In this document: in pieces, positions 21,425-59,551 of the stretch | Position numbering within the stretch: the stretch's first letter is position 1 | Layout of the letters: each line of letters begins with the position of its first letter | Origin: Oscillibacter sp. | GTDB lineage: Bacteria; Bacillota; Clostridia; Oscillospirales; Oscillospiraceae | Direction of reading: 5' to 3' | Assembly (NCBI RefSeq): GCF_028693505.1 | Contig: NZ_JAQUVF010000009.1 | Span: forward strand, 1-64,000 | Length of the DNA: 64,000 bases | Translations under genes and position numbers: made by a program | Notes under the pieces: generated by a model | What the model was told of the DNA's origin: nothing | The model's input: the letters and a program-made list of their open reading frames with translations, nothing else | Database searches by the model: none

Positions 21425-21598
21425 GTCCACTATTCTTTCGTATAACATTATACCCTGCGGGGTGCGTGATAGATCTTTTTTTAACCCACATTTCGTTATA
21501 CGGGACGCCGGATCAGTCCGTGGTTCGCAGGCCTCCCGACTGCTGTTTGCGGTTGGAAGTTGGAAGCGATGAAGCGGGGTGTAGGCAACCCACCTGTC

Positions 21599-21647
21599 CG
21601 TAAAGGTGCAGGTTATAACGGGGTCTACACGGCCTTCGCGGGGGTAC
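21599..21647 (+). repeat. 49-nt direct repeat, copy 1
   Basis: Begins CGTAAAGGTGCAGGTTATAA; identical to the copy at 23094-23142 except for one base. It is followed within about 12 nt by a hairpin CCCCTGCC/GGCAGGGG plus CTTTTTG, so the repeat could be the body of a short terminated transcript. Strand is given by the terminator. Confidence 0.85.
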
Positions 21648-21655
21648 CCCGCGCC

Positions 21656-21684
21656 CCTGCCGCAAGGCAGGGGCTTTTTGCCGT
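21656..21684 (+). terminator. terminator-like hairpin after repeat copy 1
   Basis: CCCCTGCC GCAA GGCAGGGG is followed by CTTTTTGCC. No coding gene precedes it closely. Confidence 0.65.
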
Positions 21685-21856
21685 CCCGCCGCAGCGACAC
21701 CCGCCGCAGCGACGCCACAGGGACGCACATACTTCCCCAAAAGGCCGCCCACAGGGCGGCCTTTCCTGCGGCCCTGTGGCGGGAGAAACGGCGGCGCCTT
21801 GGCGGGCTGGGGGGACCCACGGGGCGCGGAGCACCACTCCGCATGGACGCGCCCAT

Positions 21857-21898
21857 GTCAAGGGCGAAGCCGCCGCAGCGGGCCGCAGGCCCCTTGAC
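21857..21898. repeat. 42-nt palindromic repeat, copy 1
   Basis: The ends GTCAAGGG...CCCTTGAC pair, with an inner GC-rich stem-loop (GCCGC/GCGGC). It is identical over 42 nt to the copy at 22612-22653 and in the same orientation. Confidence 0.85.
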
Positions 21899-22235
21899 GT
21901 GGACGGGGCCATGTGGTATTTCCCGTGGGGGGCTGCCCGCAACCGCCGTTTCGGGCCCGCAGCAACCGCCCCACCGGGGCGATTGCGATAAAAATTTTGG
22001 ACCGGAACGGGCCAAAATGCGGGCACACCTTTTTCTTTTTGACGCGGCAACGCGGCAAAATGAATGGAACGGGTGCCGCCCTCGCGGCGGCGGGTCCCGG
22101 CCCATCGCTTCTTTCATCGTCGCAGCAGCGGCGGTAGACCAACCTCTTCCGGCGTCGCTGTTCCATCCCGTTTGCTGCGCGGCGGGAGCCGCAGTCGGCG
22201 GAGCGAAGCGGAGCCATGGGAAAAGGGCCGCAGCC

Positions 22236-22559
22236 CTATTCCACCAACACCTCCATGGCTTCCTCCCACGGATTCCAGAGCTTCCCCTCGTCTGCGTAGT
22301 AGTCCGCGAGGTATTCTACGCACGCTTGGCACACGTCCGCAGGCTCCATGGGGTATCCCGGCATCTGCGTCCCATGGGCCACGGCGTGACACTTCCAGCA
22401 CAGGCAAATGAGGTTGTGGGGGAAATCCGTCCCCCCTTGGGACCGGAGCACCGCATGGTGGATTTGCAGTCCGTGGGTATCGTCGCACAGGGCACAGCGG
22501 TACCCGTCCCGCTTGTACACGGCCTTCCTTGTCTCCTTGCTGATGTTCGCTCCAATCAT
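22236..22559 (-). CDS. HNH endonuclease domain protein
   Basis: A 107-residue protein from ATG 22559, chosen over the track's start because AGGAAGG is well placed and the upstream 94 residues run through the 42-nt repeat. It contains CALCDD, LQIHHAVLRSQGGTDFPHNLICLCWKCHAVAHG-type HNH/zinc-finger motifs: CxxC, HH, N and CWKCH. HNH nucleases of this size are common beside phage terminase genes or in small mobile elements. No terminase is present. The neighbouring small gene upstream is on the same strand, 132 bp away. Confidence 0.87.
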   Translation of the reverse strand: MIGANISKETRKAVYKRDGYRCALCDDTHGLQIHHAVLRSQGGTDFPHNLICLCWKCHAVAHGTQMPGYPMEPADVCQACVEYLADYYADEGKLWNPWEEAMEVLVE

Positions 22560-22611
22560 CTTCAACGCCTTCCTTTCTGCCCCTCTGGGCGCTTTCGTTG
22601 CGCCGCACGAA

Positions 22612-22653
22612 GTCAAGGGCGAAGCCGCCGCAGCGGGCCGCAGGCCCCTTGAC
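22612..22653. repeat. 42-nt palindromic repeat, copy 2
   Basis: Identical to 21857-21898. It lies in the gap between the two minus-strand genes, so its hairpin would be in any shared transcript. Confidence 0.85.
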
Positions 22654-22690
22654 CGTGTGGTACAATGGAAGCGTTCGGAGGGGCAGCGGT

Positions 22691-22930
22691 TTAGCCTTCC
22701 GCGCAGAGCTTTTCCACCAGCGCTACGATATCCTGCTTGGTGTCTGTTTGCGGCATCCACTCCCGGATGAGCCGTTGCAGCAGGGCATACGGGCTTACCC
22801 CCGCCGCGCTGCAAGCTCTCCTGAATGCCAGCTGTTCCCACAGCGGTAACTTGGTGGCGACGGTGCGCAGGTTATGCGCGTCCCATCGCGCCTGTCTCTT
22901 ACGGTCCACGGTTTCACCCCCTCTCATCAT
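22691..22930 (-). CDS. small probable DNA-binding protein
   Basis: A 79-residue basic protein: DRKRQARWDAHNLRTVATKLP, then two predicted helices (WEQLAFRRACSAAGVSPYALLQRLIREWM). The layout, a strand-forming TVATKLP segment followed by two helices, resembles a ribbon-helix-helix or similar short DNA-binding protein seen in phages and plasmids. It is upstream of the HNH gene on the same strand. The starts at 22930 and 22927 are equally possible. The family was not named. Confidence 0.6.
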   Translation of the reverse strand: MMRGGETVDRKRQARWDAHNLRTVATKLPLWEQLAFRRACSAAGVSPYALLQRLIREWMPQTDTKQDIVALVEKLCAEG

Positions 22931-23093
22931 TGTACTGGAAACCCCAAGAGTTTTCCACAGGATTTTCCACAGCTCACAAGTTTACTGTGTTTTACCTAGA
23001 GAAGTCACAAGCTTCTTGTGAGTAGGACCCGTGTCTTGCCCATCCCGGGCACCACCCGTAGTAGCCTACGCCGCAGGCGTATACCACATATAG

Positions 23094-23142
23094 CGTAAAG
23101 GTGCAGGTTATAACGGGGTCTACACGGCCATCGCGGGGGTAC
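23094..23142 (+). repeat. 49-nt direct repeat, copy 2
   Basis: Differs from copy 1 (21599-21647) at one position. Flanks differ upstream, but both copies are followed by a GGCAGGGG-containing terminator hairpin. Confidence 0.85.
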
Positions 23143-26470: not shown

Positions 26471-26503
26471 AAGGAAGAGACGACTTTCGTTGTCTCTTCC
26501 TTT
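26471..26503. terminator. terminator, copy A of duplicated pair
   Basis: AGAGACGACTTTCGTTGTCT-type hairpin followed by CCTTT. The core is repeated with one mismatch at 26706-26737. It serves the DUF554 gene. Confidence 0.8.
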
Positions 26504-26705
26504 GGCTTTTCAAAAAAGTCTCACAGAGTTTGCCGCCGGGGCGGCAAAAAAATGAAAATCCGTTTTCGACCGCGGCCTGTACGTGGACGAAAACACTTTG
26601 CGCGAAACGAGCGTCGAATTGTCCGCCGAAAGCGGACATATGAGGCGCAGAGCGCAGCGAAACCTTTTGTCGAAAAAGCCTATTGGCTTTTTCGACAGTC
26701 TCATG
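26504..26705. mobile_element. intergenic element between duplicated terminators (MITE-like)
   Basis: About 200 bp of non-coding sequence with a hairpin GTCGAAAAAGCC TATT GGCTTTTTCGAC at 26669-26696. The only ORF (26510-26704 minus) is repeat-derived and has no SD. The flanks are direct copies of the local terminator. A related hairpin with the same GTCGAAAAAG stem exists in the element at 57807-57965. Called a MITE-like or REP-like element by inference. Confidence 0.45.
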
Positions 26706-26737
26706 AAAGAGACGACTTTCGTCGTCTCTTCCTTTTT
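26706..26737. terminator. terminator, copy B of duplicated pair
   Basis: AGAGACGACTTTCGTCGTCT-type hairpin followed by CTTCCTTTTT. It directly abuts the stop of the convergent histidine kinase gene, which it would serve on the minus strand. Confidence 0.8.
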
Positions 26738-57541: not shown

Positions 57542-57763
57542 ATGATTATCGACAAAATCGCGCTGCTCCTGGCCATCGTCGGCGCCCTGAACTGGGGTGG
57601 TATCGGCCTGTTTGGCTTTGATACGGTGGCTTTTCTCTGCGGCGGGCAGATGTCCATTCTGTCCCGGGTAATCTACGCACTGGTGGGTCTTGCCGGATTG
57701 TGGTGCGTAACGCTTCTGTTCCGGACGGACGAAGAGACCGGCCACGCGCCTCATACTGCCTGA
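57542..57763 (+). CDS. DUF378 small membrane protein (YuzA-type)
   Basis: A 73-residue protein from ATG 57542 (TTGGAGG upstream): MIIDKIALLLAIVGALNWGGIGLFGFDTVAFLCGG then a second TM. The NWGGIG and FDTVA motifs are DUF378. The track's 212-residue frame is wrong upstream. Function unknown. It is followed by terminator copy A of an unusual element. Confidence 0.9.
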   Translation: MIIDKIALLLAIVGALNWGGIGLFGFDTVAFLCGGQMSILSRVIYALVGLAGLWCVTLLFRTDEETGHAPHTA

Positions 57764-57771
57764 GATCCACG

Positions 57772-57806
57772 CGACGGGGCCGCGGCGCAAGTTTGCGCCG
57801 CGGCCC
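57772..57806. terminator. terminator, copy A of second duplicated pair
   Basis: GGGGCCGCGGCGCAAG/TTTGCGCCGCGGCCC-type hairpin; repeated with one mismatch at 57966-58000. It follows the DUF378 stop. Confidence 0.75.
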
Positions 57807-57965
57807 GCAGACTGTCGAAAAAGTCTTTTCGACAGTCTGCGCAAGTTTTTGAAACACCGCGAAAAGTTTCAAAAACTTCTGATTAAAAACGAAAAAAACC
57901 CTTCCTGGGTTTCTTTCGTAACTATCTTCCTTCCCGTTTTCGGGGTCTTTCCGGAATCCTTAAAA
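57807..57965. mobile_element. intergenic element between duplicated terminators (MITE-like)
   Basis: A 159-bp non-coding stretch made of three hairpins: GCAGACTGTCGAAAA/TTTTCGACAGTCTGC at 57808-57841, AGTTTTTGAAAC/GTTTCAAAAACT at 57844-57878 and ACGAAA..ACCC/GGGT..TTTCGT near 57887-57919. The first shares the GTCGAAAAAG stem with the element at 26504-26705. The mobile nature is an inference. Confidence 0.45.
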
Positions 57966-58000
57966 CGACGGGGCCGCGACGCAAGTTTGCGCCGCGGCCC
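57966..58000. terminator. terminator, copy B of second duplicated pair
   Basis: GGGGCCGCGACGCAAG/TTTGCGCCGCGGCCC-type hairpin followed by TTTCC; 17 bp from the stop of the convergent antiporter gene. Confidence 0.75.
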
Positions 58001-58017: not shown

Positions 58018-59328
58018 CTATTTTTCCGCTTTTTCAGGCGCCTGCTCCTTGTTTTCCATCAGATCATGGTCCTGCTGCAACAGCTCTTGCGATACGATAT
58101 CCAGCTGCTGGACCTTTTCATAGCGGTCCGTCAGGTTGCCGGCAGCCATCTCGTTTTTCTCCTGTCCGCGGAAGGCCAGCTTCAGCAAAATGGGCGTCAG
58201 GATCGTGCCGCCAACCACGGTTATGATCACAGGGGTCATCAACTCCTGACTTAGAACCCCCATGGACAGTCCCCGGTTGGCCACGATCAGCGCCACCTCG
58301 CCGCGGCACACCATGCCAACGCCCACTTGCAGGCTCTCTTTATTGCCAAACTTGCAAAGCTTGGCGCCCAAGCCGCAGCCCAGTACTTTGGAAATCACGG
58401 AGATCACCAAAAGCAGCACGGAGAACGCCACCATGCCCCGGCTCATGGCGGTCATCTGCACGTTGATACCGATGCCTGCAAAAAAGATCGGCGTCAGCAG
58501 CAGATACCCCAGCGGTTCATACTTGGACTGGATATAGGTGGCTTTGGGCGTGCAGGAGATCACAAGTCCCGCAGCGTAGGCGCCGGTAATGTCCGCCACG
58601 CTGAAAAACTCTTCGGCACAATAGGCCATCACGAGGCACAGCACAAATGCCAATACCGGGTAGCGGCGATAGTTTTCTCCGTGCCGCCGCTCGATGATCT
58701 TGCAAAACACGCGGTAAGCGCCATATCCCCCCACCCCGGCGAACAGGAAGAACAAAACGATCTTCAACAGCACCAGCAAAATGCTCTCTTTTCCGCCGGC
58801 GACGCCGCTGACAATGGTCAGCGCGATCAGCCCCAGCACGTCGTCGATGAGGGCGGCGGCAAGGATGGTGTTTCCCACCTTGGTATCCAGCTTTTCCATT
58901 TCCTTGAGCGTTTCCACTGTAATGCTGACGGAGGTGGCTGTGAGAATGGTGCCCACGAACACAGCTTCCAAAAAGCTGCCGCCGGTCAGCACGCCCAGAT
59001 GAATGGCCCCCCACGCCAGCGCGGTACCCATGACCAGCGGGACCAGCACGCCCAGCAGAGCGACAAGGAACCCGGCCTTCCCACTGTTGCGCAGCTCATG
59101 GATGTCGGTCCCCATCCCCGCGGAAAACATCAGCACGATCACGCCGATCTCGCTGAGCTGTGAGAGAAACGCCGTCTCCTTCAAAATATTCAATCCCGCC
59201 GGACCAAGAAGCAATCCCGCCAGCAGCGCCCCAACCACCTGCGGCATTTGAAACCGCTGTGTCACAAGGCCCAGCACCTTCGTACTCAAAATAATCAATG
59301 CCAAATCCAGCAAAAAATGATAGGACAT
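58018..59328 (-). CDS. cation:proton antiporter (Kef/CPA2-type)
   Basis: A 436-residue protein from ATG 59328 (AAGGAGAGGGG upstream). About twelve to thirteen TM helices; LAGLLLGPAGLNILKET and GNTILAAALIDDVLGLIALTIVSG (with the ion-binding Asp pair region) are typical of CPA2. It has no TrkA-N domain; the last 50 residues are a soluble helix (LDIVSQELLQQDHDLMENKEQ). It likely exchanges K+ or Na+ for H+. Single gene. Confidence 0.92.
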   Translation of the reverse strand: MSYHFLLDLALIILSTKVLGLVTQRFQMPQVVGALLAGLLLGPAGLNILKETAFLSQLSEIGVIVLMFSAGMGTDIHELRNSGKAGFLVALLGVLVPLVMGTALAWGAIHLGVLTGGSFLEAVFVGTILTATSVSITVETLKEMEKLDTKVGNTILAAALIDDVLGLIALTIVSGVAGGKESILLVLLKIVLFFLFAGVGGYGAYRVFCKIIERRHGENYRRYPVLAFVLCLVMAYCAEEFFSVADITGAYAAGLVISCTPKATYIQSKYEPLGYLLLTPIFFAGIGINVQMTAMSRGMVAFSVLLLVISVISKVLGCGLGAKLCKFGNKESLQVGVGMVCRGEVALIVANRGLSMGVLSQELMTPVIITVVGGTILTPILLKLAFRGQEKNEMAAGNLTDRYEKVQQLDIVSQELLQQDHDLMENKEQAPEKAEK

Positions 59329-59551
59329 ACAATCCCCTCTCCTTGAAAGCGGTTTCTGAAGCACCGCCGGCTTTCATTTCAATGCAATTTACATAACGAA
59401 CCTTCATTGTAAACCTTTTTCCTTCTTTTGCAATGGTTATTTTGCACAAACCAGCGTTTCGTTTTTGTTAATAATCTTTTTGCGTATAAAGAAGGCCACC
59501 GCCAATATCGGCGGTGGCTTTCTTTCGTGCGCGCTTTTTAGGTTCTTCCCT

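Follow-up and report, generated by a model that had tools for sequence, protein, structure and literature searches.

A short non-coding element between duplicated terminator hairpins in an Oscillibacter genome and its probable relation to IS1182-family insertion sequences

Two loci with duplicated terminators

The window, by which we mean the whole stretch of 64,000 nucleotides of Oscillibacter sp. DNA that was analysed, contains two loci at which a transcription terminator hairpin is present twice (Table 1). At locus 2, a gene for a DUF378 protein and a gene for a sodium/hydrogen exchanger converge, and the region between them carries two 35-nt direct repeats with one mismatch, which enclose 159 bp with three hairpins. 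The repeats lie exactly where the original prediction had placed them (57772–57806 and 57966–58000), and inside each there is a perfect or near-perfect hairpin of 30 nt. In this copy the right terminal repeat of the enclosed element is degenerate and cannot be recognised. Locus 1 (26475–26735) has another terminator, as had been pointed out, each copy of the element having its own local hairpin. The duplicated terminators are target-site duplications that result from insertion and lie outside the element itself. Both loci were described as lying between convergent genes, which is correct for these two, but such gene pairs are not supported as a requirement across the other copies, for which the ORF calls are crude and noisy.

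A stem followed by AGTCT was described as common to the two loci, whose like geometry in spite of different flanks had been considered hard to explain by chance. Locus 2 has the stem GTCGAAAA/TTTTCGAC with an AGTC loop, whereas the full form GTCGAAAAAG/CTTTTTCGAC is that of locus 1 (26668–26697), where the common end GTCGAAAAAG..CTTTTTCGACAGTCTC is found at 26668–26702. With 8 occurrences of GTCGAAAA in the window, where 2.4 are expected, the shared stem taken alone is only mildly unusual, and it is the occurrence of dispersed copies that makes the shared pattern non-random. An Rfam search matched no known RNA family at locus 1 or locus 2, and no intron family reached its gathering score across the window in this general search. 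An element of 160–200 bp with a target duplication does not fit a group IIC intron.

Table 1 Features of the two loci and their neighbouring genes in the window
Feature	Position	Strand	Basis
Locus 1, duplicated terminator hairpin, left copy	26475–26503	none	Direct-repeat comparison
Locus 1, family-B MITE core, about 200 bp	26504–26706	+	At least about 15 copies genome-wide, 75–93% identical
Locus 1, duplicated terminator hairpin, right copy	26707–26735	none	Direct-repeat comparison
DUF378 gene, upstream of locus 2	57542–57763	+	PF04070
Locus 2, duplicated terminator hairpin, left copy (target-site duplication)	57772–57806	none	35-nt direct repeat, one mismatch with right copy
Locus 2, family-A MITE core	57807–57965	+	Copies in the same genome 82–93% identical, aligned
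Left-end hairpin, one arm being the terminal repeat CAGACTGTCGAAAAAG	57807–57840 (whole hairpin 57806–57841)	+	Compensatory changes, no G–T pairs
Second internal hairpin	57843–57878	+	Hairpin within locus 2 core
Third hairpin	57889–57919	+	Hairpin within locus 2 core
Best-conserved segment in family A, with hairpin ACGAAA..CCCTTCCTGGG..TTTCGT and then unpaired CTATCTTCCTTCCCG	57889–57936	+	Family-A alignment
Locus 2, duplicated terminator hairpin, right copy	57966–58000	none	Direct-repeat comparison
Sodium/hydrogen exchanger gene, convergent with the DUF378 gene	58018–59364	-	PF00999

Dispersed copies and the corresponding sites in relatives

The cores of the two loci represent two dispersed families. 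For family A, to which locus 2 belongs, the 2.06-Mb genome gave at least 7 further matches at E < 1e-25, i.e. at least 8 copies, with one interrupted copy (C48:18520) among the seven and an extra degenerate copy at C3:53290. Family B, represented by locus 1, gave at least about 15 more matches, each roughly 200 bp in length, and some of these are partial or split by contig ends. Nearly every intact copy is flanked by two direct copies of a hairpin of its own, and this hairpin varies from site to site. The flanking repeats of the copies in this genome measure 21–42 nt and many pairs are 100% identical, as illustrated by AGACAGCGGCAGATGATTCTGCCGCTGTCT, which is found twice at one site, and AGGAAGGCCCGCGCTTTTAGCGCGGGCCTTCCT, found twice at another. 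These copies bear out the proposal that an uncatalogued mobile element makes use of terminator hairpins, and the absence of further examples in the genome, which was named as the finding that would speak against it, is contradicted in both families. The idea of a single element family with a common core has to be given up, since the cores of families A and B do not align to each other; the ends, CAGnCTGTCGAAAAAG or a close variant, are all that they have in common.

The elements have the properties of MITEs. They are non-coding, have a length of 159–203 bp and occur in many dispersed copies; target-site duplication is indicated by the hairpin repeats of each copy together with the single-terminator sites described below, and at the level of the family the terminal inverted repeats are shared with autonomous elements, CAGnCTGTCGAAAAAG being present in both the MITEs and the IS1182 copies. 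Family A was found in 46 of the 86 genomes of the genus and in 16 of 151 sampled genomes of the bacterial family, and family B in 29 of the 86 genomes of the genus. At 17 of 24 family-A loci in other members of the genus a direct repeat of a hairpin is present, and several of the remaining loci end at contig edges or are flanked by similar hairpins.

In the left-end and third hairpins of family A, changes in one arm are matched by changes in the other and pairing is maintained (41 cells, compared to 10.4 in shuffled alignments), and none of 671 cells contains a G–T pair. Because of this combination, the hairpins seem closer to a DNA palindrome, which the transposase, or copying from arm to arm, might preserve, than to an RNA structure. 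The conservation of the 48-nt stretch at 57889–57936, composed of the hairpin with its CCCTTCCTGGG loop and the following CTATCTTCCTTCCCG, is far above that of the rest of family A, and this stretch is perhaps a candidate binding site. The family-A core, this stretch included, is absent from the insertion sequence (IS) copies that were fetched.

The sites that correspond to locus 2 in relatives are of two types. In the congeners G199 and G200 a single AAAAACGCCGCGGCG..CGCCGCGGCGTTTTT terminator lies between the same two genes, and most other congeners with this gene pair also have one terminator, with a different sequence. Because these relatives are about 75–80% identical, the single-terminator sites are orthologous by position and not identical in sequence. 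For locus 1, the empty site in most relatives is visible on the upstream side only, as a single terminator after the upstream gene, since the downstream gene is not syntenic. At sites of the second type, a family-A element is present, either between the same gene pair (G181) or after the same upstream gene (G211), and in both cases the duplicated hairpin is a different one. The highest similarity of the window copy is to others of the same genome (92.9%), and that of the G181 copy to another type, C1:39024 (93.7%). Since these two copies have different nearest relatives, the elements in the window, G181 and G211 would most simply represent separate insertions.

Insertion sequences of the IS1182 family that share ends and target habit

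Autonomous insertion sequences of about 1.5 kb that have MITE-like ends and encode IS1182-family transposases occur in the same bacterial family and genus. With profile PF13751, transposases were found in this bacterial family, and 80 loci came from scanning public genomes. An example is L118 (on the contig of L128, Pseudoflavonifractor sp. An44), which has such ends as well as a duplicated hairpin. The assignment of the putative autonomous partners (L118, L128–L207 and L274–L288) to the IS1182 family is based on two tested proteins, L118 and L098, which scored 386 and 377 bits with NF033551, against a cut-off of 270. The ends of the partners read CAGnCTGTC[A/G]AAAAA. In G231, a genome of the same genus, at least 10 full-length reading frames are present, several of them between perfect hairpin repeats, and decayed copies that end in CAGCCTGTCGAAAAG occur in other genomes of the genus. 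No IS1182 transposase gene was detected in the window's own genome, which is 97.7% complete, nor do the elements in the window encode one, and for this reason the MITEs in this genome look stranded. The connection between MITEs and insertion sequences consists of about 16 bp of common ends, a resemblance of the right ends as judged by eye, and the same target habit; no intermediate deletion derivative was found, and sequence comparison gave no solved structure for a relative of the transposase. The best reading is that the MITEs were probably mobilised by IS1182-type transposases.

The target habit was studied with 76 IS copies for which both flanks were available, using a threshold of at least 17 nt for direct repeats. 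Such a repeat was present in 43 copies and missing in 33, and in all of the 43 a single hairpin covered at least 80% of the repeat, compared to 11 such cases among 860 control windows taken at these loci. Some rows represent one and the same insertion in related genomes (L206, L207), which makes the counts partly dependent on each other. A target duplication of fixed size is a general hallmark of DDE transposases. Here the repeats vary from 19 to 64 nt, with a median of 29, and their length correlates with the span of the hairpin (rho 0.975). In 35 of 42 cases the hairpin is bordered by a T-rich or A-rich tract, as in terminators. The habit is not limited to Clostridia, since it is also seen in copies on plasmids, with a hairpin of 30 nt in Sutcliffiella and of 22 nt in Cetobacterium.

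Most of the listed copies that lack a repeat have complete but unlike hairpins at their two ends. In Clostridiales bacterium CCNA10 the flanking hairpins are swapped between copies (L144/L166, L158/L167 and L162/L173), as would be expected after two copies have recombined; this was seen for three pairs only. The hairpins of CCNA10 serve in this way as barcodes for recombination between copies within one genome, and a hairpin barcode provides a means to date and pair insertions. Furthermore, the loop is reverse-complemented between paired hairpins, exactly in L128, L147, L035 and L309 and nearly so in L299 and L004. Such inverted loops are not predicted by simple gap repair, and could originate from hairpin-capped or cruciform intermediates or from later flipping of the palindrome.

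Insertion into terminator hairpins compared with other explanations

We regard it as very probable that locus 2 is the scar of an insertion, in which a 159-bp family-A MITE, mobilised by an IS1182-type transposase, entered the single bidirectional terminator of the DUF378 and exchanger genes and duplicated it by hairpin joining and gap repair. The support comes from genome comparison and consists of the dispersed copies, the hairpins that are specific for each site, the single terminator in relatives, and the autonomous IS1182-family elements that have the same ends and duplicate hairpins. From this anatomy we infer the steps of joining and repair. An IS1182-type DDE transposase would recognise a hairpin that is extruded from both strands, or that is single-stranded during replication, and the two 3' ends of the element would be joined, on each strand, at the hairpin's 5' foot. 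Gap repair could subsequently fill in the two single-stranded hairpins, leaving one complete hairpin on each flank, and the distance between the cuts would be set by the hairpin and not by the enzyme. The right copy would keep the outer T-tract and the left copy the outer A-tract, so that transcripts from either side still reach a hairpin followed by U's. With these tracts retained, both neighbouring genes may well keep a working terminator, and the insertion would be nearly harmless.

It is also rather likely, although the claim is a bolder one, that a widespread branch of the IS1182 family reads the shape of its target, cutting the two strands at the base of an extruded terminator hairpin, with a duplication length (19–64 nt) that is set by secondary structure and with terminator function preserved at both flanks. 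It seems to be the shape of the DNA, and not a fixed sequence or a fixed length, that guides the cut. Such an element would select sites of low host cost, and its activity would account for a large number of intergenic repeats and doubled terminators in Oscillospiraceae of the gut.

The closest known systems are IS1272 and TnSha1, staphylococcal members of the IS1182 family that target hairpins, several of which are terminators confirmed by RNA-seq, and that delete the hairpin wholly or partly without leaving a duplication (PMC4923244, PMC5678879). The elements described here belong to the same IS family and likewise use hairpins that are often transcription terminators and share no primary sequence, but the whole hairpin is retained and doubled. 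Stem-loop replacement of the IS1272 type does not apply to locus 2, where the whole hairpin is present twice. Duplication of a whole stem-loop was drawn as one formal possibility in PMC5678879. For some IS1182 members, palindromes are stated to be the target (Siguier et al. 2015, as cited in PMC5678879 and PMC4923244), which agrees with the NF033551-type transposases and hairpin targets found here. The family is heterogeneous, as ISCaa15 is listed with 4-bp repeats (PMC3196728). With other prokaryotic MITEs, such as RUP, BOX and QMITE, the present families share small size, absence of coding capacity, dispersal, terminal repeats, target duplications and derivation from insertion sequences, but here the duplicated target is an entire terminator hairpin; the passages on terminators in a review of such elements concern MITEs that contain terminator-like sequences, and IS1182 is mentioned nowhere in the review (PMC10969869). 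Our search of the open-access literature brought up no account of IS1182 elements with duplications of hairpin length, and ISfinder or subscription reviews may record part of this. Palindrome targeting by IS1182 elements was already known; the duplication outcome with a length set by the hairpin, and the two MITE families, appear to be new. That the duplication size follows the hairpin makes structure-dependent choice of target directly testable, which for IS1272 was merely proposed.

The behaviour of IS1272 and TnSha1 also suggests a different order of events, in which insertion takes another route (blunt and with the hairpin lost, IS1272-like) and the second hairpin copy is added later by repair or recombination. 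The IS copies without a matched hairpin pair would agree with this, but the two flanking hairpins are usually 100% identical, both complete and unrelated to the hairpins of other sites, and a nearly universal subsequent repair step would be needed, which makes this order of events improbable. Mobilisation of REP/BIME-like palindromes by a RAYT (Y1 tyrosine) transposase would account for short palindromic intergenic repeats without coding capacity, but can hardly be correct, as the best Y1_Tnp score in the genome is 11 bits against a cut-off of 23 and the ends of the elements match those of IS1182-family elements; of the transposase or RAYT genes that had been anticipated, it is an IS1182-type DDE transposase that was found, in relatives. 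To our knowledge, duplication of a target hairpin is not expected from the spread of REP sequences. The convergent neighbours of loci 1 and 2 would suit a pair of ordinary terminators that became similar by duplication or conversion around an unrelated structured spacer, an explanation with practically no chance of being right, since the spacer is a dispersed repeat, which already refutes it, sites extend beyond convergent genes, relatives have one terminator, and coding IS copies show the same duplications.

Two further features of the window deserve mention next to the MITE insertions. A 6S RNA gene (Rfam RF00013) is located at 21449–21648, and its last 49 nt are repeated with 98% identity at 23094–23142. 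The intervening segment of about 1.45 kb holds an ORF that resembles HNH endonucleases (22236–22841, minus strand) and a perfect 42-nt repeat (21857–21898 and 22612–22653), and the region 21449–23142 has the appearance of an integrated element by which the 3' end of the 6S RNA gene was duplicated. Finally, a tandem array with units of about 63 bp occupies positions 1–294 of the window.
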